A stretch of 39,918 bases of DNA. Origin: Solobacterium sp. (GTDB taxonomy: Bacteria; Bacillota_I; Bacilli_A; Erysipelotrichales; Erysipelotrichaceae). The notes under the pieces are model-generated. The model had not been told where the DNA came from and searched no databases. It saw nothing but the letters and a program-made list of their open reading frames with translations. Positions 2,006 through 20,672 of this stretch are shown piece after piece (the first letter of the stretch is position 1; the number at the start of each line of letters is the position of its first letter). The stretch lies in contig JAFYHC010000021.1 in the NCBI GenBank assembly GCA_017539385.1, positions 1 to 39,918 of the forward strand. Direction: 5' to 3'. The position numbers were made by a program, and so were the translations under genes.

Positions 2006-4774
2006 CTACTCTTGAGGATCCCATGTGAACTCTCCCATGGGATCAAAAGTACCGGACAGACTGTTCTTATAATCCAATAGCTTTGCCAGGACATGATATG
2101 CTTTGGCTTCAGTGGCAATATCAATGAATTCTGTGACCTGCTTCAGTGTGAAGCAACCAAGCCACTCCGCAGCGCTCATATCATCGTTTTCGATGAGGAC
2201 GGTAATGATGTGTTTGTTGAGATACGTGACAATGTGATTCACCTGTCTGTTCCATGTATCATAGGTGAATGACCTGATGTCATATCCCTGGATCCATTCA
2301 ATATATTCATTGTCAAATATCTGTATGTCAGCTCTGCAGTCTTTCATCACCAGCCAGTCATCTTCCAGTGTGAAGCCATGCCTCTTTTTTCCCCAGAACA
2401 GATGGGTAGGCAAGAAATGGGAGGCATACCTGTCCCCTGTCACACGCGCAGGATCTTCCACGGGCTCCCACACCTGGTCAAAGGCTTGCTTCAAATGATG
2501 CTTTGCGACGTATCTCTGCCATGCTTCGGTAACTGCTTTTCCCATTTCCATTGGATGTGCCACTTTGACTGGTGCATCTGTCATCGTATAGGGAATGCCG
2601 TCTGCTGTGACGGGCTTGCCGTTTTCATCCAGTATGAATGTACTGTCGTTCTGGCTCCATACGATCTTCTCTGCCAATATGCGCAGTACGGGATTATACA
2701 GATATGCATTCTTCCACTTTTCTGCTTCTTTTTGAGCACCGGACAGGAATGCATCAAAGAGAATTCCATTACGGCTGTCGGCAGAGGGAAGAATAATCTT
2801 CTGCAGATCTCTGTATTCCCTGGCTGCCTTTGCATGTTCCGCTGCCGTACCAATCTTCGGCATACTGCAGTATACCGTTCCACTCTCATCCGTAAGTGTT
2901 AAAGAGAGATCTTTGTTCAAAGAGGCAGTCAGTATCTTTCCTGCCAGTGTCCAGGAACGCTTTCCGCTCTGATCTAGATCAAAGCTGCAGATGATATGAT
3001 CCCGGATATCTTCTGCGTCCATATCATGTAATTCTGCATATTCCGTAAGAAATCCCGACACTTCCGCAAAACGCATTGCTGTTACCGTATCATTCAGCAG
3101 TACTGCACCATAGATCTGTGACTCATAGCCAAGCTGGTGAACTCTGCTTTTCCATTTCTTCATAGCTTTCAGCAATGCATCCAATTGACGGTCGTTCGCA
3201 ATGACTGCATATGGTATGTACCATATTTCACAATCTGCTTTTGCCCACCGTTTCAGCAAACGCGTCAAATACGCAGAATCGATGTCTTTTATGAGGGCAT
3301 TGTGTTCAGACTGGATGCGATATGGCTTGATCCGTCTGCTGCGCAGATCCGTATACCATCCGGCATCGTATTTCCGCTTATTCAGCGGTCTGACACCTTC
3401 CAGACTATGATTTGGTTCAAGATTCTCATCGGAATAATATGGAATAACTGCACGCATCAAAGACGCAAACATGGGCAGATGATCCAGTTCTTCCCAGTAT
3501 TTTTCGATGATCGTTTCCGATATCAGATTCCAGTCAAGAAGTTCCGTCTCAATACGCTCTTCATGCGGCTGTTCACATAAACGTATCTCCCGTTCCAGAT
3601 GTTTTTTCACACCGGCATCTGACGGATACAGCCTGTACAGTATCTCTGACAGTTTCTGCAGTCTTTCTTTTCCAAGCACCGGTGCAGCCGCAAGTGTAAA
3701 GCGAAGCAGGGCGATCCGCTGTGTGATTTCATCGGAAGTCTGGAAATATTCCAGGATGCAGTCCGCTACAGCACATGCGTTTTCTTCATTCAGATGATAG
3801 CGTATATGGTGATAGTAGGATTCATTGTAACCGTCTTCCTTGCTCACCAGACACAATGCCAATAGTCTTGGTGTCAGCGGCATATACTGCGAAGCCCAGT
3901 ATGCATGCTTCCATGTTTCCAGGTAATAGCTTTCCGGCAGGTTCAGATTCGGACAGTCTGAGAATGCATTATCTGCGATCTCCGGCATACTGCCTGACCA
4001 TGTGACTGTCTTCAGTTTTTCACACTTTCTGAATGCATTCGAACCGATTTTTCTGACTTCTGCAGGCAGTTCTATTTCTGTTAGTTCCGGATGCGCTGCC
4101 TTGATCATACCCTCTTCCATCAGGAATGCTTTACTGCGTATCATGCATTCCCCTGCATCATTTACGCAAAGCAAAGAACGTACGATCTCAGAATTCATAT
4201 TTAACCGGAAAGCTGGATAGACCGCCTCTTTGTTATCCACATCTCTTTCTTCCACCGTATACAGTTCGCTGATTGCCATGCTCAGCACCAATGTTGTTTT
4301 CGCAGTGCTTCCGGGTGAACGCGTCCGGATCGAAGTATATCCGTTATCCCATGACAAAAGATTCAGAAATTCCTCACTGTCATCCGGGATGGCATAATCG
4401 GTCCTGTATTTCTGTTCTTCTTCCTCACTCAGTATAAAAATCTGATCGTATGTATCGTTTCCGCCTTCTGTTCCAAATTCCGGATGATCATTTGTTTCTA
4501 CATGACTGACTGCGATCCCCTGCTGTTCCTGCTCATTGAATTCTTCCTGCAGAAACACAGTATTGAGCCATTTCCGCAATGAACACGTTTCCCATGTGAT
4601 CTCACAGTACTTCTCATGGTACGCATGAATACCGATGCTGAAACGTGACTGCACAAGCATCGTATGCGCAGTATCATCGATCTCCAATACCTTCCAGTAA
4701 CGCCTGCCGAAGGAGAATACGGTTCCCTGTTCCAATTTCAATTGTATTACCGGTTCCTGTATGTTCTTTGTCAA
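2006..4774 (-). CDS. DUF6273-LRR-DUF4132 protein (copy 1)
   Basis: 922 aa, cytosolic. Residues about 10-190 match the DUF6273 pattern (WKVLEID, TWETCSLRKWLN, EEFNEQEQQGI, IFILSEEE, YPAFRLN). Residues about 230-280 hold one BspA-like leucine-rich repeat (ELPAEVRKIGSNAFRKC). A long helical middle leads to the DUF4132 core (about 605-780: WTLAGKILTASLNKDL, AHPMEMGKAVTEAW, LKQAFDQVWEP) and a conserved tail ending FTWDPQE. The start is TTG at 4774, ten bases after AAGGAG; no better in-frame start exists before the DUF6273 domain. It follows the 751-aa paralogue by 20 bases and is closely related to the 870-aa protein at 16475-19087. DUF4132 proteins include E. coli YehI. Their biochemical role is unknown, and partnership with MoxR/VWA is inferred from the third copy. 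Confidence 0.85.
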   Translation of the reverse strand: MTKNIQEPVIQLKLEQGTVFSFGRRYWKVLEIDDTAHTMLVQSRFSIGIHAYHEKYCEITWETCSLRKWLNTVFLQEEFNEQEQQGIAVSHVETNDHPEFGTEGGNDTYDQIFILSEEEEQKYRTDYAIPDDSEEFLNLLSWDNGYTSIRTRSPGSTAKTTLVLSMAISELYTVEERDVDNKEAVYPAFRLNMNSEIVRSLLCVNDAGECMIRSKAFLMEEGMIKAAHPELTEIELPAEVRKIGSNAFRKCEKLKTVTWSGSMPEIADNAFSDCPNLNLPESYYLETWKHAYWASQYMPLTPRLLALCLVSKEDGYNESYYHHIRYHLNEENACAVADCILEYFQTSDEITQRIALLRFTLAAAPVLGKERLQKLSEILYRLYPSDAGVKKHLEREIRLCEQPHEERIETELLDWNLISETIIEKYWEELDHLPMFASLMRAVIPYYSDENLEPNHSLEGVRPLNKRKYDAGWYTDLRSRRIKPYRIQSEHNALIKDIDSAYLTRLLKRWAKADCEIWYIPYAVIANDRQLDALLKAMKKWKSRVHQLGYESQIYGAVLLNDTVTAMRFAEVSGFLTEYAELHDMDAEDIRDHIICSFDLDQSGKRSWTLAGKILTASLNKDLSLTLTDESGTVYCSMPKIGTAAEHAKAAREYRDLQKIILPSADSRNGILFDAFLSGAQKEAEKWKNAYLYNPVLRILAEKIVWSQNDSTFILDENGKPVTADGIPYTMTDAPVKVAHPMEMGKAVTEAWQRYVAKHHLKQAFDQVWEPVEDPARVTGDRYASHFLPTHLFWGKKRHGFTLEDDWLVMKDCRADIQIFDNEYIEWIQGYDIRSFTYDTWNRQVNHIVTYLNKHIITVLIENDDMSAAEWLGCFTLKQVTEFIDIATEAKAYHVLAKLLDYKNSLSGTFDPMGEFTWDPQE

Positions 4775-4794
4775 AGTACAGTCTCTCCTTCCCC

Positions 4795-7050
4795 CTATGA
4801 TTCCTGTGTACCGGAATCAGAATTCAGATTCAGATTCTCTAATGGATCATACTCCGGATACGCTTCCTTCAGATAATTCATCAGAACTGTCTGGGCTTGT
4901 GTCCTGTTCAGATCATTTGCTTCGTTCATAAAAGACAGGATCTGTTCCAATGAAAACAGACGTAATATATCCTCTCTGAGTTTTTCTCCGCTGTCATTTC
5001 TGATCATACTTTCCACAATTGCTTTCAGCATTGCCTGTATCACTGTATCCACAGCAGTATGATCAACTTCTTTTTTTACTCTGAAACTATGGAATGTCAC
5101 TGACCGGTCTCTATGCAGCGTATATTCCACCACAACAGCTTCTCCGCTGTGCATTGTATTTTTATCGCTGAGCTCATATCTGCGGCCGGTATGACCTACC
5201 ATGTAATCTGTATTCACATTGATTCCAGTCTTTTTCAGTTCTTTCAGATATTCGATTCGTTCCGGTGATGTGATCGTCAATCCAATCAGTCCGGATAAAT
5301 CATATATGTCTGTCAGATCTGTGACTTCCTGCCACATCTGTTCAAATGGCTGCTGTATGTTATGGGATCGTAAATACTTCTGCCATTCTATGACGTCCTG
5401 CGGCCTCATGCCTAAAGCACTTACGGCTGTGATGTCATCATGCAGGGAATAATACTCTTTTCCTCTGAAATCCATAAAGCCGTTTTCCGTGGGTATAAAG
5501 CATTTTTCTCTGTCTGCCCACACGATTCCGCAAGACAGCTGCTGAACGATGGGATTGTGTTCATATGCTTTCATCCAGTATTCTTTATGGACTGCTGTTC
5601 CGCTTATTTGCATCTGTTTCAGCACATGGATCCATTCTTTGGCAAAACGCTCTGCTTTTTCAGCGAATATTCTGTATTCCTCCCTCAGCTGTTCCAATTG
5701 CTCTGTATCTGTGCCTTTCTGCACATCTGGAAAAACGCTTATTTCTTTCTGTGCATTGCAGTCAAATATTGCTAGTGACAGATCAGGGCGCACAGTAACA
5801 CTGAGATCGACAGTATCACACTGAAACTTTCTTACACCGTCCACATCAAATCCAAGATCAGGAATCAGATCGTCATATCTGTAATCCACCTCTGTCATGT
5901 TTCTCAGTTCCGCGTATTTATTCAGTTTATTGTTACGGATATAGTATTCCCTTGCGGCTTCCGTATTGCTGTATTTGGCAGAAAAATCCATCACAAAGGA
6001 AAGGTTCTTCTGCTGGAAGAAGAGCTCCATTGTCTTTTCATCCGCATATCTGCAGATCGGATGCAGCACTAATTTCTTTTTGCAGGTTGTACCGATTCGT
6101 TCTAAAGCCATCTGAAAGCTGGATTGATCCAGTAATGAAACGACCTTCTTTGCCTCATCACGGATTCCCGGTGCTGCATATTTCACGTGAAAAAAATGAC
6201 CGGAAAGACTTTGGTGGCAGGTCAGCAGCCATGCCAGTACATATGGTTTCAATGCTTTCCCATAGTTATCCAGCACGGTCGGTAAATCTCTGAATGACAT
6301 ACCATACCCTGTTACAAGATCTGATTCCAGCTCATCAGCAGACTTCCATTCCGCTTTCAGCTGTATTTCGACCATCTTCTCTGCAGAATCCACCCAGCTT
6401 AATCGATATGCTGTATCCGGATCACGTTCCAGCAGTTCTAAAGCCTGTGCAGCTTTCCCGGCGTCCTTTCGTAAAAGCAGATACAGTTCTCTCAGAACAC
6501 TGTCCGATATCATCTGATGGAACAGGACCATAAACACTGCTGCACCAGTATATGTTTCACTGGAGCGCTCTTTTTTGATGATACCGGCAATCGCTTCAGC
6601 AATTGCCTCTTCGTTATCTAAAGCACTGATCTGTTCTTCATATGCCGGTAATATTGTCTTCCCATGCCGGAGTAAGAATACTTCTGCCTGTTGGTTTATA
6701 TCTAATGCATACCATTCCTGCAGCACGATATAATCTCTCACAGACTCATCCGGCAGATACTGTAGGAAAGACCGCCATTTGTCTCGCAGCCCAAACGGTA
6801 TCGAAGAACCAAATATGTTTTTTCCAAATACGATGGAATCTCCTGTGATCGTAAACGATCGAAGATCATCACAGTTTTCAAATGCATAATCACCGATACT
6901 TGTTACACTTGCAGGAATCGTGATACCGGTCAGACTTTCGCAGTTCCTGAACGCATACTCATTAATCCTAATTACGCCTTCCGGAATGCGTATTCCTCCG
7001 CCGCTTCCCGTATACGTTATCAGTACTTTATCTGCTATCACAAAATCCAT
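4795..7050 (-). CDS. LRR-DUF4132 protein (short paralogue)
   Basis: 751 aa, cytosolic. It begins directly with a BspA-like LRR_5 unit (residues about 15-75: IRIPEGVIRINEYAF, ITIPASVTSIGDYAF) and lacks the DUF6273 domain of its two relatives. The helical middle and a diverged DUF4132 core follow (about 390-590: DLSVTVRPDLSLAIFD, AYEHNPIVQQL, IQQPFEQMWQEVTD), then a tail (EQILSFMNEAN) matching the FTLKQVTEFIDIA block of copy 1. The ATG at 7050 follows AGAGGA. It is the first gene of the leftward cluster with copy 1, TIR and the small unknown protein, with a TATAAT box about 70 bases upstream. The family is secure; function is not known. Confidence 0.82.
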   Translation of the reverse strand: MDFVIADKVLITYTGSGGGIRIPEGVIRINEYAFRNCESLTGITIPASVTSIGDYAFENCDDLRSFTITGDSIVFGKNIFGSSIPFGLRDKWRSFLQYLPDESVRDYIVLQEWYALDINQQAEVFLLRHGKTILPAYEEQISALDNEEAIAEAIAGIIKKERSSETYTGAAVFMVLFHQMISDSVLRELYLLLRKDAGKAAQALELLERDPDTAYRLSWVDSAEKMVEIQLKAEWKSADELESDLVTGYGMSFRDLPTVLDNYGKALKPYVLAWLLTCHQSLSGHFFHVKYAAPGIRDEAKKVVSLLDQSSFQMALERIGTTCKKKLVLHPICRYADEKTMELFFQQKNLSFVMDFSAKYSNTEAAREYYIRNNKLNKYAELRNMTEVDYRYDDLIPDLGFDVDGVRKFQCDTVDLSVTVRPDLSLAIFDCNAQKEISVFPDVQKGTDTEQLEQLREEYRIFAEKAERFAKEWIHVLKQMQISGTAVHKEYWMKAYEHNPIVQQLSCGIVWADREKCFIPTENGFMDFRGKEYYSLHDDITAVSALGMRPQDVIEWQKYLRSHNIQQPFEQMWQEVTDLTDIYDLSGLIGLTITSPERIEYLKELKKTGINVNTDYMVGHTGRRYELSDKNTMHSGEAVVVEYTLHRDRSVTFHSFRVKKEVDHTAVDTVIQAMLKAIVESMIRNDSGEKLREDILRLFSLEQILSFMNEANDLNRTQAQTVLMNYLKEAYPEYDPLENLNLNSDSGTQES

Positions 7051-7376: not shown

Positions 7377-7706
7377 TTATACTTTTGCTTCGTGGCTTAT
7401 ACCTGTACAGATATTATTCTCGTCAAAGAGCAATGCTAAATGATAACCCGTTGCCATCCACTGACACAGTTTTCCACCGGTACCTGTCGGCGATACAGAT
7501 GATGGAGTACCACAAGCCGCAACAATTTCATCATATGTTTTACCTGCAATTACCCCATTTGTATCTTTTGTCAGATTCGCAAACTTTGTCTGAAGAACAT
7601 CTCCTGGAGCTCTCACAAAGGCACTCATAATCAAATACCCAACAAGCGCAAGAAGCATTGTTCCTATATATGACATAATACCGTCAAATGAAAATAGTGA
7701 ACTCAT
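7377..7706 (-). CDS. Small membrane-anchored protein with SmpA/BamE-like motif
   Basis: 109 aa. One hydrophobic segment (about residues 9-30, GIMSYIGTMLLALVGYLIMSAF) anchors the protein. The remaining domain contains IAGKTYDEIVAACGTPSSV, which resembles the 'G.t..eV...lG.P' motif of SmpA/BamE-like domains, then CQWMATGYHLALLFDENNIC, a beta hairpin with paired cysteines. The ribosome site GAGGAGGG precedes the ATG. It is a single-gene unit whose promoter carries the GTCTAC-type operator also found at 12199 and 12266, so it is probably co-regulated with the zinc-ribbon and lipoprotein operons. No function can be assigned. Confidence 0.7.
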   Translation of the reverse strand: MSSLFSFDGIMSYIGTMLLALVGYLIMSAFVRAPGDVLQTKFANLTKDTNGVIAGKTYDEIVAACGTPSSVSPTGTGGKLCQWMATGYHLALLFDENNICTGISHEAKV

Positions 7707-7828: not shown

Positions 7829-7857
7829 AAGATAGCATAATAGTCTACAATTGTAAA
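7829..7857 (-). promoter_or_regulatory. Promoter of the small membrane-anchored gene
   Basis: On the minus strand, TTTACA (-35, 7852-7857) and TATCTT (-10, 7829-7834) are separated by 17 bases. The palindromic site at 7843-7858 covers the -35 and spacer. Confidence 0.5.
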
Positions 7858-7858
7858 C
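7843..7858. promoter_or_regulatory. Operator-like palindrome (site 1)
   Basis: GTCTACAATTGTAAAC is 15/16 identical to the perfect palindrome at 12199-12214 and contains the exact TACA-N2-TGTA core bound by BlaI/MecI/CopY-type repressors. It overlaps the -35 of the promoter for 7377-7706. Confidence 0.6.
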
Positions 7859-7865
7859 CCTATGG

Positions 7866-7881
7866 GTCTAATTTTGTAAAC
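7866..7881. promoter_or_regulatory. Operator-like half-conserved site (site 2)
   Basis: GTCTAATTTTGTAAAC lies 23 bases from site 1 and keeps both outer halves (GTCTA and TTGTAAAC-like) with a degenerate centre. Probably a weaker second site. Confidence 0.4.
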
Positions 7882-8029
7882 CTTATGTTCAGTAAATTAT
7901 GTTGCTGAGCTAGTACGTGCCTGTGCCTCATGTTTTATTGTAAATAAACACAGTGATTTGTACCACAACAGACCTGTTCAGTATCTCTACAATACAAATA
8001 TATGAAACAGGCATAAGCCGTTATATCTG

Positions 8030-8110
8030 ACTTGGTACTGCCCATATGCATTACTCAAATTATACTGATACGCATTCCACTCCAGAATGCAGATAAAACT
8101 ATTGATAATA
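8030..8110. repeat. Promoter-region repeat, copy B
   Basis: Resembles 7087-7175 in the same orientation, including TTACT, AATTATACTGATACGCAT and a downstream ATGCAGATAAA stretch. No DUF4132-type gene starts to its left, so it looks like a leftover promoter or duplicated intergenic segment. Confidence 0.5.
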
Positions 8111-8193
8111 ACCTGGAAGTCTGTAGTGGAAAAAGAACTCTGACATTGAATTCTTCTTTTGCGTTCCATGGATTATTACTTATCTCGAAGGAA

Positions 8194-10053
8194 TCATTTT
8201 TTCTTCATATAGAATGTTTGAGTCAGATAATCGCCTGAATCGGGACCATAATATGTTGGACACCAGACAACTTCTTCATCACCAGCCTTGTCTATAACCA
8301 GAACACCTTCTGAGTTTCCGGCTGTACCGTATTTATAGTCGTAGTAATCATAAAAACTAAATGAACTGCTGAAAGGTGTTTGTTCCGAAGTGGGTTGAAT
8401 GACACCTAAAGAGCTGCCATTTAAAAGACAATATACATACCCTTTTTTCACAGTAAATTTGAGTGTTTTTTCTTTGCTGCCGCTTGAATAAGATCTGCCA
8501 GAAGGTGTGTTTTTACTGATTTTATATGTCTTATAATCACCTGCATAGTATTTAAGATTATTACATAATTCATATAGTTTTCTAATATCTTCCGGCCAGG
8601 TATCCATCATATTCATTATCCTCATGGAATCATCTAAGTTATATCCAAGATCAGATTCAAATAGTATTGTATGAACCGCCGCATTTAACTTTTGAGAGGA
8701 GTCTAAAACTCCTTTTATGGAATACCAATCATTAATGGCTTCCAACAATTTACCTTCTTGTTCATTCACAGCTGCATGACAATAAGTACTGAGTTCTTTC
8801 GAGTTATTGTAATTTGGAATATATTCAAAAAGAATCTTTGCCTGGTCATAACTTTTTTTATCTATTAAACTATCCGCAATTTGATATATTTTTTCAGCAT
8901 TGGCTGAGACAAATTCACTTGGCAATAATGTATATCCGGATACATCCGATTTTCCTTCTGATAAATCGTTCAGAATAGAATTGTATGCATAGTTCAATAT
9001 ATAATCTGAGTCGTCTTGATTAGAAGCAGTCTTAAGAACTTCTATTGCTCTATCGTATACAGATTCATTTATAAGATCCATTGCCTGCACATATATATCA
9101 CTGTCTTTCACATGAGTCTTTTTAAACTTTTCATACGCATGTTCAATTTCGTTATTATGTAAATAAGTAATGGCATCGTTGTAGTTTTTCTTTGGGAGAA
9201 TTACGGTAAAAACAAGTATTAACACAGCAACAAACACAGCCGCCAAAGCTCCTGCAAGCAACTGTTTTTTATGCTTCTTTGATGCCTGGACTTCCTCTTC
9301 TGCTTTGATACGCTTCTGCTCCTGATGCACATCCAGTTCGCTCTGATATCTATTCTTTTCCTGTTCCAAATCCATTGCCACAAGCAGGTCTGCTTTTGGA
9401 ATAGACGGATGCTTTTGAACAAATGCATCTATATAGGAATTGAGATTATCGTCAAAACTTCTTTCCAGATCAAAAGACCAGCCGTCTGCCACATAATCCT
9501 GAATATATGCTTTATTCAGGTCTAACGAAAGAATTTCCTGAGCAAATTCAATTGTTCGTCCGCATCTGCAGGTTGTCTCATATGGTGCATGTATGCGGCC
9601 GCAGGTGCAGAACCAATAGTCTTCCCGGATTTCCGGATAAAATTCGATACTCTTCTTTTTGCGAAGATATTGGAAACGTTCTGCATTCGCATCAGGAAGC
9701 TCAAAACGCACCAGTTTGCCAGAAGCCTCATAGATCTGTCCGTTTACGATTTCCTGCTGTATTGAAAGATCATCGGAAGAATCATCCAGTTCTACCTCAA
9801 TGACACATCCTTTGTAGTTATCACTGCTGTATTTGCTAACAGGACGGAAATCGGTTCCTTCATAGTCCTTTCCATTATGTACAAATGTGATCCGGTTGAT
9901 CTCATCTCTGCTGCCGGTGCGGTCCATCAGATAAATCTTCAGATATCGCTTTGCCTTAACGACTACCTTTTCAACTGCATAGACCCAGATGGGCAGTGCT
10001 ATATCATTCTGAATGGATGACTGACTCAGTAAACTTAACGGTTCTCTTTCCAT
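8194..10053 (-). CDS. Zinc-ribbon, coiled-coil, single-TM protein with helical-repeat outer domain
   Basis: 619 aa from the ATG at 10053. An upstream in-frame TTG at 10074 would overlap the preceding gene and is less likely; GAGGAG lies just before this ATG. Residues about 1-145 are a beta-rich domain shared with the 501-aa neighbour. A CxCG...CxCG zinc ribbon follows (about 149-166), then a Glu/Lys/Gln-rich coiled coil (about 225-262) and one TM helix (about 264-287). The C-terminal half holds TPR-like helical repeats (AITYLHNNEIEHAYEKF, DRAIEVLKTAS, SYDQAKILFEYI) and ends in an unassigned, aromatic-rich beta domain. The basic residues before the TM helix favour the repeats being outside the cell. 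Third gene of the operon beginning at 12174. Confidence 0.75.
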   Translation of the reverse strand: MEREPLSLLSQSSIQNDIALPIWVYAVEKVVVKAKRYLKIYLMDRTGSRDEINRITFVHNGKDYEGTDFRPVSKYSSDNYKGCVIEVELDDSSDDLSIQQEIVNGQIYEASGKLVRFELPDANAERFQYLRKKKSIEFYPEIREDYWFCTCGRIHAPYETTCRCGRTIEFAQEILSLDLNKAYIQDYVADGWSFDLERSFDDNLNSYIDAFVQKHPSIPKADLLVAMDLEQEKNRYQSELDVHQEQKRIKAEEEVQASKKHKKQLLAGALAAVFVAVLILVFTVILPKKNYNDAITYLHNNEIEHAYEKFKKTHVKDSDIYVQAMDLINESVYDRAIEVLKTASNQDDSDYILNYAYNSILNDLSEGKSDVSGYTLLPSEFVSANAEKIYQIADSLIDKKSYDQAKILFEYIPNYNNSKELSTYCHAAVNEQEGKLLEAINDWYSIKGVLDSSQKLNAAVHTILFESDLGYNLDDSMRIMNMMDTWPEDIRKLYELCNNLKYYAGDYKTYKISKNTPSGRSYSSGSKEKTLKFTVKKGYVYCLLNGSSLGVIQPTSEQTPFSSSFSFYDYYDYKYGTAGNSEGVLVIDKAGDEEVVWCPTYYGPDSGDYLTQTFYMKKK

Positions 10054-10063
10054 ATACTCCTCA

Positions 10064-11569
10064 CTAATTATCAAGATTGATCCAGATTGCCGGACGGATC
10101 ATAATAGCTTCTGTTATATCTGTACCTGTTGGATTCACATTTCCCTTAAAATTAACATGTACAGCTTTCATGCGGGATTCTCCCATTGTCCGCAATACCC
10201 AGTTCACGGTCAGATTCTCGTCACTGGAACCTTTGTACTGGGATTTTTCTTTTGCATATGGTGTACAGGTACATGTTCTGTCACCTTTGAGCTGTATGAG
10301 ATCTACAGCCTGCGGATAACTCAGAAGGAATACATGATCCTGCGTCGCATTCCCCTGATCGGTCACATTATTATGGTCTGCTGTAATATTCATCAGACAG
10401 ATCTGATTCTGTTCCGCAGAAGTAAACGCACTGTTGTAGAAGTCTGTATTCAGCCAGCTTCGAATATCACTGCTCTCCCATGTCACTTCTTCTGCTGTAT
10501 TGTTGAACGGTTTGTAATCCAGACATTTTTCACTGATGACAAGGACTCTGTTTCCTTCAAACTGCAGTACTTGCCATGCAATTGGTTCTTTGCCGTTCAT
10601 TACGTTGTTATCCTGTTCGTACTCACCAAATGTAAAGATGTATCCTGTGCCGTTCTCTTTTATTTCTTTTATCAGTTGGTGTGACTGGATACGGAATAAA
10701 ATCTGATCTTTGAATATGAATCCGCCTGTGCCAAGAAGCGCGATCACAACAGCCGCAATTACAGCAATCTTTCTGATTTTCTTTTTGCGGGCCGCTTTTC
10801 TTTCTGCAGCTTCTTCTGCTTCTATGCGCCTTCTTTCGGCATCCTGTTTTTCCTGTTCATATCTTTTCTGCATCGAGACAGTATCCAGCTGCACAAGCAG
10901 TTTCTCCAGTGGAATATGGGGATATTTCTGTGTAAACGCTGCTGTATAGCGGTTCATATTGTCATCGAATGATATTTCCGGATCCAGGGTCATTGGTACT
11001 TTCAGATAGTCTTCAACAGCTACGGTATCATAATCAAAATCCAGAATATTCTGCATTTCATGCTTCGTTCTTCTGCATGCGCACACCGTATCTTCCGCCG
11101 CATGGATGCGTCCGCATCCGCACAGCCAGTAATCCTCCTGTATTTGCGGATATACCAGAAGACTGTGTTTTTTCTTCAGATAAGAAGTACGGGGAGACTC
11201 TGCAGGATCCATATGGAACGTGCATGCTTTCTGCTTACCATCGAAGATCTTTCCGCCGACGATCTCCTGCACGATCATGAGATCTTCAGCAGTATCTTCC
11301 AGATCCACCTCAATGACACATCCCATATAATTGGGATCATCGTATTTAGATACACGGCGAAAATCAGAAATAACATAATCTTTTCCCGCATGCTGAAATG
11401 TAATGCGGTTGATCTGACTGCCGTCTCCCGTTCGATTCAGCAGATAGACTTTGAGAAAACGTCTTGCAGTAACAACGATATTTTCAATCTGATAGATCCA
11501 GTACGGCAGGCTCAGATCATTGGTTATATAGGATCTGCTTAGTAATTCCAGTGGCTCTTTCTGCAGCAT
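10064..11569 (-). CDS. Zinc-ribbon, coiled-coil, single-TM protein with outer DUF6273 domain
   Basis: 501 aa. Residues 1-260 are paralogous to the 619-aa neighbour: the same opening (PLELLSRSYITNDLSLPYWIY), a CxCG...CxC zinc ribbon at about 150-165 and an Arg/Glu-rich coiled coil at about 235-262. A basic stretch (RKKKIRKI) and one TM helix (about 267-287) put the N-terminus inside. Residues about 312-498 are a complete DUF6273 domain (WQVLQFEGNRVLVIS, TWESSDIRSWLN, AFTSAEQNQI, HVFLLSYPQAV, MIRPAIWINLDN), here outside the membrane. GGAGG lies 12 bases before the ATG. A plausible role is signalling across the membrane, but that is inference. Second gene of the operon starting at 12174; its stop lies ten bases before the next start. 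Confidence 0.78.
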   Translation of the reverse strand: MLQKEPLELLSRSYITNDLSLPYWIYQIENIVVTARRFLKVYLLNRTGDGSQINRITFQHAGKDYVISDFRRVSKYDDPNYMGCVIEVDLEDTAEDLMIVQEIVGGKIFDGKQKACTFHMDPAESPRTSYLKKKHSLLVYPQIQEDYWLCGCGRIHAAEDTVCACRRTKHEMQNILDFDYDTVAVEDYLKVPMTLDPEISFDDNMNRYTAAFTQKYPHIPLEKLLVQLDTVSMQKRYEQEKQDAERRRIEAEEAAERKAARKKKIRKIAVIAAVVIALLGTGGFIFKDQILFRIQSHQLIKEIKENGTGYIFTFGEYEQDNNVMNGKEPIAWQVLQFEGNRVLVISEKCLDYKPFNNTAEEVTWESSDIRSWLNTDFYNSAFTSAEQNQICLMNITADHNNVTDQGNATQDHVFLLSYPQAVDLIQLKGDRTCTCTPYAKEKSQYKGSSDENLTVNWVLRTMGESRMKAVHVNFKGNVNPTGTDITEAIMIRPAIWINLDN

Positions 11570-11631
11570 AGTCTTATTTCACCTCCGCCATGATTCCGGT
11601 ATTATTACGTTTCATCATCGTTACCCTCTTG

Positions 11632-12174
11632 TCAGAATCTCAGTTCATCCGGCAATACATTCCTGGGCGTTCCTGATGTTTCTTTACGGAAAATCAGAAT
11701 GTGCTGACAGATGGTTGAATTTGTACCCATACCGCCATAAGAAGAGCTTTCTCTTCCCACTTCACTTGCATAGATATGATCCAGTTCCCAGCCTCTTGCG
11801 GCATACACCGAAATAATGTTTGTCATTTCTGATTTTTTGACTCTTCCATCATGACCGTCTTCCAGTATTTCTACTGCGTACTGGTATTTCGCTGTACCCG
11901 TTCCCAGTGCATCATCCAGTTGTTTTTCAACCCGATCTCTTTCCCGGCGCAGCGCTTCCATATGTCTTTGCGGAGCTGTTAATTCGTAATCTTCGTGTTT
12001 CATCCATGTTTCTGAATCAAAAAGAGCTTTCTGCTGTTCTTCTGTCATCCGCATGAAGGAAGATTGATCAACACGGGAAACACTCAGTTCATTGCCGCAT
12101 TCATCACATGCCTTTGCACCCCATGGCCGATATTGTATTTTTCCGCAAACTTTGCAAATACTTGCGTAATTCAT
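11632..12174 (-). CDS. Zinc-ribbon / DUF4177 protein
   Basis: 180 aa, cytosolic. Residues 7-30 form a CxxC...CxxC zinc ribbon (CKVCGK...CDECGN). A charged helix follows, then a DUF4177-like domain (about 95-165: KYQYAVEILE, MTNIISVYAARGWELDHIY, ILIFRK), typical of small Bacillota proteins of unknown function. AGGGGGT precedes the ATG. First gene of the leftward operon with the two membrane zinc-ribbon proteins (62 bases to the next gene). Its promoter overlaps the perfect GTCTAC palindrome and is divergent from the lipoprotein operon, so the two operons are probably regulated together. Confidence 0.78.
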   Translation of the reverse strand: MNYASICKVCGKIQYRPWGAKACDECGNELSVSRVDQSSFMRMTEEQQKALFDSETWMKHEDYELTAPQRHMEALRRERDRVEKQLDDALGTGTAKYQYAVEILEDGHDGRVKKSEMTNIISVYAARGWELDHIYASEVGRESSSYGGMGTNSTICQHILIFRKETSGTPRNVLPDELRF

Positions 12175-12198
12175 GTTTACCCCCTGTATTCGTTTATT

Positions 12199-12214
12199 GT
12201 CTACAATTGTAGAC
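12199..12214. promoter_or_regulatory. Perfect operator palindrome (site 3)
   Basis: GTCTACAATTGTAGAC is a perfect 16-bp palindrome with a TACA-N2-TGTA core. It overlaps the proposed minus-strand -10 box TACAAT (12206-12211), whose -35 GTGACA is at 12230-12235 (18-base spacer). A repressor bound here would block the operon starting at 12174. Confidence 0.7.
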
Positions 12215-12220
12215 CCTTTT

Positions 12221-12235
12221 GTGACAGTCTGTCAC
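12221..12235. promoter_or_regulatory. Short perfect inverted repeat in the divergent promoter region
   Basis: GTGACA-GTC-TGTCAC, a perfect 6-bp inverted repeat at the minus-strand -35, followed by a plus-strand T run. It may be another protein site or simply part of the promoter. Confidence 0.4.
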
Positions 12236-12265
12236 TCTGTTTTTTTTACTTCTTGACCAGTTCAA

Positions 12266-12281
12266 GTCTACGGTTGTAGAC
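12266..12281. promoter_or_regulatory. Operator palindrome (site 4)
   Basis: GTCTACGGTTGTAGAC differs from site 3 only at two central bases. It overlaps the spacer and -10 of the proposed rightward promoter TTGACC (12253-12258), 18 bases, TAGACT (12277-12282). It would control the lipoprotein operon at 12319. Confidence 0.65.
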
Positions 12282-12318
12282 TAAATTTAACATAACGTGG
12301 GAGGTTACGCACATCATC

Positions 12319-12735
12319 ATGAAAAAACTAAGATTATTAAGCATTCTTTTTGCTGTTGTGCTGATGATCGGCTGCTCTGGCGCAAAGTTCGACGGTACCT
12401 ATGAACTGACTGGTTTTATCGTTGACGGACGCAGTGAAGTAGTCCCTGTCGGAGACAACGGCAATGCCGGTTCCAGCATTGAGATCAAAGGCGACAAGTT
12501 CACCATTCACATTGCTCATACGGATAACTCCGGGCAGAAGGTAGTCGATGACTGGGACGGCACATTAACGGATATTGAAATCGAGGGTGAACCGAAGGAT
12601 TCCAATATCCGTACAGTATCTCTGATCCAGAACGGAGCAAACATGGGCATCGGTACACTGAATGCACAAAAGAAGGAATTCATCTTCACGCTTGGCGGCA
12701 CCGGTTCCACACACTGGCTCATGCAGAAGAAATAA
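12319..12735 (+). CDS. Small lipoprotein, first gene of the lipoprotein operon
   Basis: 138 aa. A lipoprotein signal peptide (KKLRLLSILFAVVLMIGC) has its lipobox cysteine at about residue 19, so the mature protein is anchored outside the membrane. The mature part starts FDGTYELTGF and is rich in alternating beta strands ending GTGSTHWLMQKK, which suggests a small beta-barrel or lipocalin-like fold; I do not recognise a named family. The lipoprotein at 13125 opens the same way (LDGTY), so the two are probably distant paralogues. The start follows GGGAGG. Co-transcribed with the next three genes from the promoter covered by operator site 4. Confidence 0.8.
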   Translation: MKKLRLLSILFAVVLMIGCSGAKFDGTYELTGFIVDGRSEVVPVGDNGNAGSSIEIKGDKFTIHIAHTDNSGQKVVDDWDGTLTDIEIEGEPKDSNIRTVSLIQNGANMGIGTLNAQKKEFIFTLGGTGSTHWLMQKK

Positions 12736-12750
12736 GGAGGTCTTACTCAC

Positions 12751-13110
12751 ATGAAGGATAAATTACTGTCTATTGTCGGAATCATCGGCGGAATCGTTTC
12801 TCTCGCCTTCTCTGCTTTTGTTTACAAACTGGATGTCGGTTCTACCGTAAGACAGCAAACCTATGGCGGAGATGCCTATACGGGCATTCAGAATGCCGGT
12901 GCTATAACCGCAACCAACATCGTATATATGAATACGATCCTGCGGACTGGATTAAGTGCACTGTTAGCAGTGATTGGCATTCACATGATCTGTTATTACA
13001 CGATGCATTTACTGGATAGTTCCCAGGCAAAAGCAATTGTCAATGCTGCACCGCAGCAGCTTCCTGCAAAGCCTGCTGATCAGGAATACGAAGAAGCAAA
13101 CAAATTCTGA
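12751..13110 (+). CDS. Small two-TM membrane protein
   Basis: 119 aa. TM segments lie at about residues 7-26 (IVGIIGGIVSLAFSAFVYKL) and 62-82 (ILRTGLSALLAVIGIHMICYY), with a Gly/Ala-rich outer loop between them and a Pro/Ala-rich acidic tail. AAGGAGG sits ideally before the ATG, 15 bases after the previous stop. Not recognised. Its place between three lipoproteins suggests a membrane partner or anchor for them. Confidence 0.72.
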   Translation: MKDKLLSIVGIIGGIVSLAFSAFVYKLDVGSTVRQQTYGGDAYTGIQNAGAITATNIVYMNTILRTGLSALLAVIGIHMICYYTMHLLDSSQAKAIVNAAPQQLPAKPADQEYEEANKF

Positions 13111-13124
13111 GGGGATACCACTAT

Positions 13125-13577
13125 ATGAAACGTATTTTTACTGCATTGCTTTCACTGTTTCTGGTGCTGACAACAGCCGGATGCTCCGCAGCATGGGACA
13201 AACTGGATGGCACATATCGCGGTGATTTTGGAAGTGTACTGGTTGGCGGCAAGCCAATGACAGGTGCCACTGATTTCACGGACTGGTCATTAAGAATCAG
13301 CGGTAACAATGTAACGTTCCATGATGCTTACAGCGGGGAAGAAAACAAAGGTGTATTAGAAGAATGCAAATACTCTGACGATAAAAATGAGTATGCATGT
13401 GAGATCAAATTTGAAACGGAACCGCAGCCTCTGCCCGGAACCCAAAGCAGCTCATACACCTTAACGGCCTATAAAAACGAAGGAAAACCTGCCAGTTACA
13501 TTTTGAATGTCATTCTGATTGGTAATTTTGGCAGTTCCTACGCTGCCGGCATGGTTGTCGAAATGAAAAAGCAATAG
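13125..13577 (+). CDS. Small lipoprotein, third gene of the operon
   Basis: 150 aa. A lipoprotein signal peptide has a TTAGC lipobox (Cys about residue 20). The mature protein opens WDKLDGTYRGDF and is beta-rich, with one Cys pair (CKYSDDKNEYAC) that could form a disulfide outside the cell, and ends GMVVEMKKQ. The layout is like the 138-aa lipoprotein at the start of the operon. GAGGGG lies before the ATG, and the gene follows the previous stop by 14 bases. Function unknown. Confidence 0.78.
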   Translation: MKRIFTALLSLFLVLTTAGCSAAWDKLDGTYRGDFGSVLVGGKPMTGATDFTDWSLRISGNNVTFHDAYSGEENKGVLEECKYSDDKNEYACEIKFETEPQPLPGTQSSSYTLTAYKNEGKPASYILNVILIGNFGSSYAAGMVVEMKKQ

Positions 13578-13601: not shown

Positions 13602-14447
13602 ATGAACAAATTTATCAAATGCATCGCAGCAGGCACCCTGTGTTTTATGCTTGCGTCCTGCAAAAGTGTTTCCCCGGAAGCACAGGCAGTCATTGATACG
13701 ATCAATACTGCCATGCAGAATACGGAACATACTGTACAGGAATACGCCGACATACAGGCACAGTACGAAGCACTGGATGAAAAAACACAAAAAGAAGTAT
13801 CCAACTATTCCGAATACCAGACAAAAGTTGTTTCTTACTTTGCTGATAAGCGAAACGAAGTGAATACTTCTTTGAAAGGACAGAAGTTCTATTTCAGTGA
13901 TACAGAAGGCAGTGTTACTTCCATGGTCTTCAATGGGGATACAGTCCATATGTCTCTCTATGATTTTGACGGCAATGGCAAGCATGAGACAGCTTCTGTT
14001 GATTATGAATATATCTGTGACGGCAGCAAGATCCGTCTCAACGCCTCACAGCCCATGGTGATTAGCTACAGCGTGTCGAACGGGAAAGTAACATTAGACA
14101 GTTCGTATCTGACCGAAGATGATATTATCAACGGTCTGCAGGGAAGCTGGACATTGCGTACCTCTTCCTTTGCCGGTGATACGGAGCGCAATATGGAAAT
14201 CTCCGGAAGAAATGCAACGTATGAACACGCTTCTGAAGCTTATGGCTATGATGGTGCCTATTACTATTACGGACCCTATTCCGGATCAATCACAATTGAT
14301 GACGGCAGTGTATCCATCAATGATACCCATGGTCAGGAATACTTCTTCAGCTGCAAGAACGGATCCGTACAGCTATATCACTATGACAGCAAGATGTCCC
14401 GCGGTTCCGGTCTGAAGTACGAAGACGGATACTACGACGCCTTCTGA
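13602..14447 (+). CDS. Lipoprotein with helical stalk and C-terminal beta domains
   Basis: 281 aa. A lipoprotein signal peptide has an LASC lipobox (Cys about residue 20). A predicted coiled-coil stalk follows (about 25-90, VIDTINTAMQNTEHTVQEYADIQ). Two related beta regions come next: about 95-175 (GQKFYFSDTEGSVTSMVF, ETASVDYEY) and about 180-275 (LQGSWTLRTSSFAGD, GSITIDDGSVSINDTHGQ, Tyr-rich end). The 'GSW.L' opening resembles small secreted beta-sandwich modules. Last gene of the four-gene lipoprotein operon; a strong terminator follows. Function unknown. Confidence 0.78.
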   Translation: MNKFIKCIAAGTLCFMLASCKSVSPEAQAVIDTINTAMQNTEHTVQEYADIQAQYEALDEKTQKEVSNYSEYQTKVVSYFADKRNEVNTSLKGQKFYFSDTEGSVTSMVFNGDTVHMSLYDFDGNGKHETASVDYEYICDGSKIRLNASQPMVISYSVSNGKVTLDSSYLTEDDIINGLQGSWTLRTSSFAGDTERNMEISGRNATYEHASEAYGYDGAYYYYGPYSGSITIDDGSVSINDTHGQEYFFSCKNGSVQLYHYDSKMSRGSGLKYEDGYYDAF

Positions 14448-16474: not shown

Positions 16475-19087
16475 TCACAGATCCAGTGTGAATTCATCCA
16501 TGGGGTCAATGTCTTCAAAGTGGGAATTCTTATAATCCATTAACTGGGCAAGGACATTATGGGCATTGGCTTCTGCGGCAAGACGAATGAATTCGGTAAT
16601 CTGCGCCAGTGTGAAGTAGTCCAGCCACTGCACAGCAGTGATATCATCCTGTTTCACACGTCCGGCAACGGTACAGCGGTCCAGATACGTTACGATGTGG
16701 TTGACCTGACGGTCGTAGGTATCGTAATGGAAATTCAGGATCTCGAATTCATCTGTGAATGAGCCGTAGAAAGGGACACTGGCGGCTGACTGCAATTTTG
16801 CTGTGCATCCTTTGAGACGGATCACGTCGAGACCATCGAGCGTGATGCCGTGTTTCTGTTTATTCATTAACAGATACATGGCAATGGGATGGCCTTCGTA
16901 GCGGTCGGAGCGGATATTTTCCGGGTTTTCTACCGGTTCCCAGACCTGTTCAAAGGGCTGTTTCAGACCGTGTGCGGTGAAGTATTTCTGCCATGATCTG
17001 GTCATCTCCTGTCCCATTTCCATGGGGTGGGCGACGACGATCGGGGCATCTGTGATGGTATATGTTGTTTCATCTGCCTGGATGGGCTGTCCATCACGCA
17101 GTATGAATGAAGCGTCATCCTGCTGCCATACGATGAGCTCTGCCATGATGCGCAATACCGGCTTTTTCAGATAGGCATTTTTCCAGTCTTCTGCTTTTCG
17201 CTCTCGTCCGGACAGGAAGTCCTGAAACAGTCTGTCATTGCGTACTTTGGCGGTCTCATGGATTCCTTGCTTCAGATCGATGATCTCGTGCCTGGTGCGT
17301 TCATAGTCGATCAGTTCTGCACCCTTCTTTGAGATATACCGGCATGGCTTTCCCCTGTCATTTGTCAGGGTGACAGTGAGGTCTTTGTTTATAGAAGCAG
17401 TATATGTCCGTCCTGCCAATGTCCATGTACGATGACCTGCTTCATCCAGTCCGAAGTCACTGATGATCTGATCACGGATGGTATCTTCATCCATATTGCG
17501 GATCTCTGCATACTTTCCCAGTGTATCCATCTTATCCGCATGGCGCATGGCGATGATCGTATCATTGAGCAGATATGCGTCTTTGACCAGGCTGACATCT
17601 GCTTTTTTCGTCTCTGCCAGTAAGACATCCAGTTCCATATCATTCGCATATGCCGCATAAGGGACATACCAGCGCGGGCTGATCCACTGTGCCCATTTCC
17701 GCAAAAGCATCATCAGGGCACCATGGTCCAGCTGTGCACAGGCAGCTTCTGCCGCAGGATCTTTCCTGTAGGCGTGTTTCTTTCCGGTGCGCGATGCATC
17801 GACACTGGCAATTTTATACTGCATTGCATATTCACCCACTGCAGCGATGACTTCCGCAAGTCCATGGAGACGGTCCAGTTCACTCCATTCCCTGGAAAGA
17901 AGATCATATGTCACGATATTCCTGCGCAGGATATCTCTGCCGATGAGGGGAAGACGGTCCGTACGTTCCATTTCCCGTACAAAGCATGGTTGCCACTGGA
18001 AGCGGTTATAGCGAATCAGCAGAAGATACTTCTGAATGTCTCTTAAACGCTGTCTGCCAAGTACCGGAGCAGCCGCAAGTCCATACCGCAGGATCAATTC
18101 CCCGCTGTCGGTGTCTCTTCGCTCTTTGAGCACAGGAAAAACACGGTCAAACAGCTCTGCCGCATTGTCTGCACCCAGATTCTGTATGAGGATATCCCGG
18201 TATGCACTTTTCTCATGGGTATTGAGAAGCAGATTGCTCAGGATATCATGATCGATCGGCATATATGATGCATACTGGTCCGAGGGCAGTGTCTTTCCTA
18301 TATAGAATTCTTTGGGAAGCTGCAGACGGGGACAGTCAACGATGGAATTGTCTTCCAGGACCGGTGCGTTTCCTTCCCAGTGTATGTGTTCCAGCTGATG
18401 ACAATGGCAAAAGGCATGTCTGCGGATCTTTGTGACAGTGGAAGGAATCGTGACATCCGTGCAGATTTCCCGTACATATATCAGTTCATTGTTTTCAATG
18501 ACCATGAGCGGACCAGCCACACATACTTCACCCTGTGCATTCCGTTCCATTTGCTTCTGCAGTGCCGGGGATGACAGATTCACCCACATGGCAGGACGTA
18601 TGCCAAAAGCGTGCCACTGCCATTCTTCGGTCACATTTCCCTCTGTATCAACACACAGGAAGAAATCCTTCCAGTTCTTGCATCTATCACGCAGCCACCA
18701 GGATATCCCATGTGTATTTGGGATATATGCTTTATAGCGCATATATTCTTCTTCACTCAGTAAGAACATATGGTCTTCGACAGCCTTACTGCCGCGTGCA
18801 CGTATATGCGTAAGAAGAATACCCTTGGATTCTTCCGGCAGGAATTCCTTCCGCCGGCAATCATTCACCAGCCAGTTACGGATATTGCTGTTATGCCAGC
18901 CTGCATCTTTATGTTCAGCGTGCGCCTTTTCCCCAATGCATTCATCACTGATTACAAGCATGCGGTTTAACAGCACATCCACTTCCAGGATCCGCCAGCG
19001 TCTGCTGTGCAGTCCAAAATATACGCAGCTGCCCGGTGCAAGCGGTTCTTTCACGGTACCGGCAAAGACATTATTCACTGATGTCAT
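16475..19087 (-). CDS. DUF6273-LRR-DUF4132 protein of the VWA-MoxR operon
   Basis: 870 aa, cytosolic. Residues about 12-185 are DUF6273 (RRWRILEVDVLLNRMLVIS, NIRNWLVN, HMFLLSEEEYMRYK, FGIRPAMWVNL). About 205-260 hold one BspA-like repeat (TIPSTVTKIRRHAFCHC). Helical middle, then the DUF4132 core at about 545-725 (WTLAGRTYTASINKDL, AHPMEMGQEMTRSWQKYF, LKQPFEQVWEPVEN) and the tail block FTLAQITEFIRLAAEA. GGAGG precedes the ATG. It is the third gene of an operon with VWA and MoxR, 22 bases after MoxR, so it is probably the client or effector partner of that AAA+/VWA pair, as in the E. coli yeh cluster. The end (FTLDL) is slightly shorter than in copy 1 (FTWDPQE) and sits at a recombination junction. 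Confidence 0.88.
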   Translation of the reverse strand: MTSVNNVFAGTVKEPLAPGSCVYFGLHSRRWRILEVDVLLNRMLVISDECIGEKAHAEHKDAGWHNSNIRNWLVNDCRRKEFLPEESKGILLTHIRARGSKAVEDHMFLLSEEEYMRYKAYIPNTHGISWWLRDRCKNWKDFFLCVDTEGNVTEEWQWHAFGIRPAMWVNLSSPALQKQMERNAQGEVCVAGPLMVIENNELIYVREICTDVTIPSTVTKIRRHAFCHCHQLEHIHWEGNAPVLEDNSIVDCPRLQLPKEFYIGKTLPSDQYASYMPIDHDILSNLLLNTHEKSAYRDILIQNLGADNAAELFDRVFPVLKERRDTDSGELILRYGLAAAPVLGRQRLRDIQKYLLLIRYNRFQWQPCFVREMERTDRLPLIGRDILRRNIVTYDLLSREWSELDRLHGLAEVIAAVGEYAMQYKIASVDASRTGKKHAYRKDPAAEAACAQLDHGALMMLLRKWAQWISPRWYVPYAAYANDMELDVLLAETKKADVSLVKDAYLLNDTIIAMRHADKMDTLGKYAEIRNMDEDTIRDQIISDFGLDEAGHRTWTLAGRTYTASINKDLTVTLTNDRGKPCRYISKKGAELIDYERTRHEIIDLKQGIHETAKVRNDRLFQDFLSGRERKAEDWKNAYLKKPVLRIMAELIVWQQDDASFILRDGQPIQADETTYTITDAPIVVAHPMEMGQEMTRSWQKYFTAHGLKQPFEQVWEPVENPENIRSDRYEGHPIAMYLLMNKQKHGITLDGLDVIRLKGCTAKLQSAASVPFYGSFTDEFEILNFHYDTYDRQVNHIVTYLDRCTVAGRVKQDDITAVQWLDYFTLAQITEFIRLAAEANAHNVLAQLMDYKNSHFEDIDPMDEFTLDL

Positions 19088-19109
19088 TCTTCCTCCATGT
19101 AATACTGCA

Positions 19110-20660
19110 TCAGCTCAATGCTCCGCCAGGGGAAGAAATACCTCCGTCTTCCCCATCGTCATCATCTTCCAGACTTTCCAGTTCCTGCAGGATCTGCTGC
19201 TGTCTGTCGTAGAAAAGCAGTTCTTTGTTATGGCGGAAATAGGCATCACAGCCATAGCGGCTGATAAACTGTGCCGTGTAGTAATTGACCGTCAGTTCGG
19301 TTACGAAGATCACCATCTCCTGCCCGTTGCGGACTGTCTTTTCACAGAAGACAAACGCATTGTCCATGCCTTTTCTGCATGTATCTGCCATCTCACGCAG
19401 GTTCTGCGTACGTGCATCAAACATGTTTTTGATACATGTGAATGCCTCCTGGAAGTCAGTATATTTTTCTTTCCGCACGGTCTTCTGCATCTCATCGAGT
19501 GCCTGTATGACTTCGTGCAGGATGGCCTGCTGGTCATTGGACAGTGATTTGGAGATCTTTCCCTTCTGCAGTCTGTCACGGTGTGCAGCGATCTGTTTTC
19601 CCAGTGCATCTGCCGCATCACCGGATGCCTTCTTGACCTCTTTTAAAGCCGTCAGAAGCTCTCTTTGTGTGTTCTCCGATAAATATACCTGACGGCACAG
19701 ATCACCGATCCTGTCGATGATCAGGCCTACTACAGCCAGTCTCTCATCAAACTTCGCACCCATGGCACGCTGTACAATTTCCTCAGACGGTCTGCCGTCC
19801 AGGATATCCTGGATCTGATAGTCGGACTTATACTTTACAAACAGGTCATAATATACCGCAAAGTCCTTTGCGATCTTCCGGTTGCGCAGATACTGGATGA
19901 TCAGGCTTTCTTTCACCGGAATATTGTTCTGTTCATACAGATGGATCATATCCGAGAGATCCGACCATCCTCTTGCCGTAATATAGGTCTTTCCTTCAAT
20001 TGTTGTCTCGATCTTATAGAAGTTATCCCTCTTCAGATCCAGATATGACACAATCGAAGGATGAATTCCCTTCTGGTATGCATATTCTTTCCAGACTTCA
20101 TAATCCGGTTCAATATCAACTCTTTTTAATCTGTCCCATGTAACGATGTCATACTCATGTACGGAATTGTTGTACTCCGGCGGATTGCCTGCTGTGACGA
20201 CGATCCATCCCTCGGGCACTCTGTGCTTTCCGAAGATCTTATACTGCAGGAATTGAAGCATGGCCGGTGCCAGTGTTTCCGATACACAGTTGATCTCATC
20301 CAGAAACAGGATGCCTTCTTTTACACCGGTCTCTTCCATCATGTCGTATACCGATGCAATGATCTCACTCATGGTATATTCCGATACACTGTATTCTTTC
20401 CCGCCATAGGTCTTCTTTTCAATAAACGGCAGACCAAGCGCACTCTGTCTGGTGTGATGCGTCATGGAATACGATACAAGACCCACACCCAGTTCTGAAG
20501 CAACCTGTTCCATGACAGCTGTCTTTCCGATACCCGGAGGACCCATCAGAAACAATGGTCTTTGCCTCTCCAGCGGAATCACATATTCCCCATACCGGTT
20601 CTTGGTAAAGTATGCACGCATTGCATTGCGGATCTCTTCTTTTGCTTCTTTGATATTCAT
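19110..20660 (-). CDS. MoxR-family AAA+ ATPase
   Basis: 516 aa, cytosolic. MoxR proteins are hexameric AAA+ ATPases that remodel partner proteins together with a VWA protein. Walker A GPPGIGKT (about residues 39-46), Walker B ILFLDEIN (about 116-123), sensor-1 region VVTAGNPPE (about 155) and the VTWDRLKRVDIEP segment are all present, so it should hydrolyse ATP. The C-terminal ~230 residues form a long helical extension (about 320-430) ending in an acidic tail (LEDDDDGEDGG), larger than the roughly 380-aa YehL type. AAGGAGG precedes the ATG. Middle gene of the operon; the VWA gene ends 12 bases upstream and the DUF4132 gene follows by 22. Confidence 0.93.
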   Translation of the reverse strand: MNIKEAKEEIRNAMRAYFTKNRYGEYVIPLERQRPLFLMGPPGIGKTAVMEQVASELGVGLVSYSMTHHTRQSALGLPFIEKKTYGGKEYSVSEYTMSEIIASVYDMMEETGVKEGILFLDEINCVSETLAPAMLQFLQYKIFGKHRVPEGWIVVTAGNPPEYNNSVHEYDIVTWDRLKRVDIEPDYEVWKEYAYQKGIHPSIVSYLDLKRDNFYKIETTIEGKTYITARGWSDLSDMIHLYEQNNIPVKESLIIQYLRNRKIAKDFAVYYDLFVKYKSDYQIQDILDGRPSEEIVQRAMGAKFDERLAVVGLIIDRIGDLCRQVYLSENTQRELLTALKEVKKASGDAADALGKQIAAHRDRLQKGKISKSLSNDQQAILHEVIQALDEMQKTVRKEKYTDFQEAFTCIKNMFDARTQNLREMADTCRKGMDNAFVFCEKTVRNGQEMVIFVTELTVNYYTAQFISRYGCDAYFRHNKELLFYDRQQQILQELESLEDDDDGEDGGISSPGGALS

Positions 20661-20672
20661 CCTGTATCCTCC

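Follow-up and report, generated by a model that had tools for sequence, protein, structure and literature searches.

A candidate BlaI-type regulon of four transcription units for uncharacterised cell-surface proteins in Solobacterium sp.

The genome assembly of Solobacterium sp. (GenBank accession number GCA_017539385.1; 2.70 Mb in 118 contigs, 85% complete) includes a 39,918-nucleotide stretch (contig JAFYHC010000021.1, designated C112), here called the window, that carries three transcription units relevant to this work. The zinc-ribbon operon, on the minus strand, begins with a gene for a 180-aa zinc-ribbon protein (11632-12174), whose resemblance to DUF4177 is weak and below cut-off. It continues with genes for a 501-aa membrane protein (10064-11569), composed of an N-terminal domain, a CxC..CxC zinc ribbon, a transmembrane segment and DUF6273, and for a 626-aa paralogue (8194-10074) that shares the first three of these elements and differs in its extracellular part. 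Divergent from it on the plus strand is the lipoprotein operon, which encodes a 138-aa lipoprotein (12319-12735), a 119-aa small membrane protein (12751-13110), a 150-aa lipoprotein (13125-13577) and a 281-aa lipoprotein (13602-14447). The third unit is a gene for a 109-aa membrane-anchored protein (7377-7706, minus strand). The predicted regulon described below thus comprises a zinc-ribbon protein, two zinc-ribbon membrane proteins, three lipoproteins and small membrane proteins in the window, and no known role was found for the regulon proteins in Pfam or NCBIfam. The structure model of the zinc-ribbon protein was poor overall (mean pLDDT 51.5), and the fold search gave no match below E 0.001.

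A C-terminal tag (PDELRF, EEANKF, DEALKF or NDALKF) is common to small membrane and zinc-ribbon proteins, namely those encoded at 11632-12174 and 12751-13110 in the window, at L099:5514-5819 and at L100:9571-9957. The flanks of the window (2006-7050 and 16475-22085) encode DUF4132, LRR_5, DUF6273, AAA/MoxR-like and VWA (DUF2201) proteins, and these flanking genes resemble MoxR-vWA systems.

The initial annotation had described four copies of a palindrome in three promoter regions, and all four were found. O1 (12199-12214, GTCTACAATTGTAGAC) is a perfect 16-bp palindrome with 0 mismatches and belongs to the minus-strand promoter of the zinc-ribbon operon. O2 (12266-12281, GTCTACGGTTGTAGAC), with 2 mismatches to the palindrome, is placed between the -35 TTGACC and the -10 TAGACT in the plus-strand promoter of the lipoprotein operon. 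O3 (7843-7858, GTCTACAATTGTAAAC), with 1 mismatch, lies in the minus-strand promoter of the small membrane-anchored gene, and O4 (7866-7881) is a degenerate copy, GTCTAATTTTGTAAAC, with 3 mismatches among the 14 outer positions (central two bases excluded). The TACA-N2-TGTA core is complete in O1 and O3, while one half of O2 reads TACG. When up to 3 mismatches are allowed, the window contains 3 copies of the 16-mer against 0.14 expected, and none of 100 dinucleotide shuffles of the window gave three such sites. The interval between the two divergent operators contains another perfect inverted repeat at 12221-12235, GTGACAGTCTGTCAC, with a T-run after it; this repeat is either terminator-like or a further operator.

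The overlap of the sites with promoter elements was also borne out, as consensus promoter matches overlap O1, O2 and O3. The lipoprotein operon promoter (12253-12282, plus strand) reads TTGACC-N18-TAGACT and is overlapped by O2, and on the minus strand the matches are GTGACA-N18-TACAAT (12235, with the hexamer at 12206) and TTTACA-N17-TATCTT (7857, with the hexamer at 7829). A scan of the region gave 23 promoter-like sites against 21.4 in shuffles, which is no excess, and the -35 assignments at O1 and O3 are therefore weak. Read in the direction of the gene, O2 (plus), O1 (minus), O3 (minus) and a fourth site described below (C48:5870, minus) share the ending TGTAGAC, with T or A as the next base. 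A simpler interpretation is that the -10 hexamer comes in every case from the gene-side half-site TGTAGACT (TGTAGACA in O1). The putative -10 would then be TAGACA at 12198-12203 (minus strand) for the zinc-ribbon operon, with TACAAT inside O1 as an alternative, and TAGACT at 7842-7847 (minus strand) for the small gene, each from the gene-side half of its operator.

Across the whole genome, four places match the 16-mer when up to 3 mismatches are allowed, and three of these are in the window. The reversed pattern used as a control had 12 matches, such that the raw count is not above control level; the signal is in the location of the sites and not in their number. Each of the four precedes a member of a single gene family or a neighbour of such a member. 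The fourth, GTCTACATTCGTAAAC at C48:5870-5885, is accompanied by a second, degenerate copy, GTCTATACCTGTAGTC, at C48:5844, 26 bp away, and the operon that follows has the promoter TTGACA-N17-TAGACT; its first gene (5514-5819), 51 bp away from the site, encodes a small membrane protein. A protein search with the 501-aa protein (10064-11569) retrieved its paralogues at 8194-10074 of the window and at C48:3576-5504, the latter with 41% identity over 232 residues. The C48 site is independent of the choice of motif made in the initial annotation, and one of 12 control-level matches would fall in a 200-bp stretch of this kind with a probability of about 0.0009. The 16-mer is hence not scattered over the genome but confined to promoter regions, one of them preceding the unit of a paralogue. 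With TCTACANNTGTAGA and one mismatch allowed, the search returned the window sites and two further places, on C82 and C96.

DUF6273 was considered as the common factor and rejected, because a DUF6273 gene on C115 (L113) has no site; the site therefore tracks the zinc-ribbon family and its neighbours. A congener, Solobacterium sp. UBA3691 (G012), has a related operon with the same pair of small transmembrane and zinc-ribbon proteins and no such operator upstream, and no zinc-ribbon relatives beyond this one were found in the genome collection.

The genome has a single match to Penicillinase_R (PF03965), a 122-aa BlaI protein encoded at C31:30642-31010 (70.3 bits, cut-off 22.6). Peptidase M56 (PF05569) has only two matches, one closing C31 and one opening C48, and these cover complementary profile positions, 104-196 and 205-296 respectively. 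C31 thus ends with blaI and the N-terminal portion of an M56 gene, and the C-terminal portion of a BlaR1 (M56) gene comes first on C48, the facing ends being ...LTEDETRFIL and RKRHDPMKKLIVFLITLIHWFNPVVWLL... A single M56 protein broken around its HExxH stretch would, we assume, read in this way. The two contig ends have no sequence overlap, and the join rests on their being two parts of one gene; on this basis the blaI-blaR1 locus probably adjoins the fourth unit across the assembly gap, with about 5 kb from the fourth operator to blaR1. No beta-lactam sensor domain was found in BlaR1, as Pfam gives M56 only in C48:21-872, and the structure model of this C-terminal part was poor (mean pLDDT 47.5). 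The expectation of a BlaI/CopY gene carrying the same site upstream was borne out in part: the genome does encode a BlaI together with a BlaR1 partner, but the promoter of blaI itself has no palindrome, whereas most blaI genes of the genus do carry dyads.

The comparison was extended to 70 genomes of the genus, in which BlaI-family proteins are common, and the upstream DNA of 44 BlaI-family genes was read. Most of these regions have dyads of the type xxxTAx-N4/5-xTAxxx just before the gene, with TA[C/T/A] half-sites. Half-sites with GTCTA were found for 7 of 11 proteins with a K[KRQ]ST recognition helix against 2 of 28 others (Fisher p 0.0006, uncorrected for kinship), and the recognition helix of the C31 BlaI is KKST. 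This protein belongs to a clade with those of G062, G041, G045, G004, G052, G064, G070 and G085 (support 93/91). Within the clade, G062 has TTCTACAAATGTAGAC and ATCTACAAGTGTAGAC as paired blaI operators 23 bp apart, the same spacing as between O3 and O4, and four other members have GACTAC- or GCTAC-type sites; the nearest relatives with clear sites (L047, L048 and L096) have GACTAC..GTAGTC. The 70 genomes together contain 6 copies of the composite TTGAC-N9-12-TAC-N4-GTAGAC, a count at control level: in the blaI promoters of G041 and G062, at 12253 in the window, at C48:5870 and twice inside ORFs. Four of the six are thus blaI promoters or belong to the present regulon, which links the composite to blaI.

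It is likely that the sites are operators for a BlaI-family dimer, that the repressor is in the first place the C31 BlaI, and that the four units are induced together. The shared BlaI-type regulon proposed in the initial annotation is supported by the rarity of the sites, their promoter position, the fourth unit, the presence of a BlaI with BlaR1, and the blaI sites of congeners. Several observations count against this reading: the C31 blaI promoter and the related G012 operon lack the site, the nearest relatives with clear sites have GACTAC..GTAGTC, O2 has an imperfect core, the contig ends do not overlap, and the 15% of the genome that is missing may encode another repressor. A dimer of the winged-helix Penicillinase_R repressor would bind the palindromes. 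Given that the half-site TGTAGACT also serves as the -10, the bound dimer would obstruct RNA polymerase at all four units, namely the lipoprotein operon and the zinc-ribbon operon divergent from it, the gene for the small membrane-anchored protein and the paralogous C48 operon. The single BlaI of the genome, encoded with a BlaR1-type M56 membrane protease, would be this repressor, and the protease would sense an envelope signal and inactivate BlaI, turning on all four units together. The position of the sites, their rarity and the comparison with congeners give good support to a small four-unit regulon of the BlaI type; from the same sequence data we infer that the contigs join, that BlaI binds and represses, that proteolysis induces the units, and what kind of signal is sensed. 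Our best guess for this signal is the cell wall, because a sibling BlaI gene in the genus precedes a gene for an M23/PcsB-like hydrolase (L114) and the BlaR1 of G062 carries a C-terminal M23 peptidase domain.

An unlikely alternative is that the sites are recognised by another BlaI-family repressor, whose gene falls in the 15% of the genome that is missing, and that the C31 BlaI has an operator of its own. Several genomes of the genus do have 2-5 BlaI-family matches, and the C31 blaI lacks an operator of the present type in a genome that is 85% complete, yet the C31 blaI-blaR1 locus abuts the fourth operon across the gap and the helix class of its BlaI suits the half-site. It is very improbable that the Xre/HigA-like HTH protein encoded in the fourth unit (C48:3260-3553) autoregulates via the palindrome and also acts on the window, as suggested by the presence of this small HTH gene, since six congener homologues (54-61% identity) have no palindrome within about 1.5 kb, whereas blaI genes have one. 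Control by a CopY-type copper repressor is extremely improbable. O1 and O3 fit the CopR/CopY operator consensus RNYKACANNTGTMRNY and O2 does not, and CopY proteins are distinguished by Cys-X-Cys (PMC7253601). Such C-terminal copper motifs are absent from the one Penicillinase_R protein that was found, which is therefore not a CopY, and the copper part of the initial annotation is not supported. The protein scores 45 bits against the CopY_TcrY cut-off of 122, and no copper gene was identified by Pfam or NCBIfam among the predicted regulon genes. That the palindromes are transcription terminators or chance repeats is hardly credible: 12199-12214 can form a 6-bp hairpin, terminator-like in the scan, but no strong T-run follows it, and the sequence itself, beyond its pairing, recurs at four promoters and never in shuffles.

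Among the closest described counterparts of the proposed control by the C31 BlaI is BlaI_0696 of Clostridium thermocellum, for which DAP-seq and EMSA support inverted GTCTAT repeats and a regulon of few genes, including BlaR1 genes and a hypothetical gene, with paired operators (PMC8457756). The present case shares the GTCTAT half-sites, the paired operators and the very small regulon, and differs in a half-site spacing of four nucleotides in place of five, in a C as the last half-site base, and in a blaI without a site where BlaI_0696 controls its own operon; it appears to be the same kind of system with other targets. The TACA-N2-TGTA core and a BlaI with an M56 membrane protease partner are also found in the BlaI/BlaR1 systems of Bacillus licheniformis and Staphylococcus aureus; unlike these, the partner here has no Pfam beta-lactam sensor domain and no beta-lactamase was identified among the predicted targets. 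The blaI-blaR1 locus of G062 (L116) has the TTGACA-N17-TAGACT promoter with overlapping operator seen at the C48 unit, but there the operator precedes blaI itself and BlaR1 has the C-terminal M23 domain. The switch thus appears to be of a known kind, controlling uncharacterised cell-surface genes rather than drug resistance. More tentatively, and with slightly less than even confidence, the pair may combine an undescribed sensor domain and a non-autoregulated repressor with a non-beta-lactam envelope-stress regulon of lineage-specific proteins (zinc-ribbon membrane proteins, lipoproteins and small membrane proteins). Four uncharacterised transcription units would in this way acquire a candidate regulator and a likely class of signal, envelope stress via an M56 protease, and there would be further evidence that the role of BlaI/BlaR1 pairs extends beyond the control of beta-lactam resistance.

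Further arrangements were noted at blaI loci of congeners. At L114, L115 and L117 blaI is directly followed by a gene for a large secreted protein; of these, only L114 was checked with Pfam for M23 and PcsB-like coiled-coil domains. In G043 (L010, 1501-1546) blaI has two GTTTAC-N4-GTAAAC operators 30 bp apart and is divergent to a second gene, MarR-like by eye.
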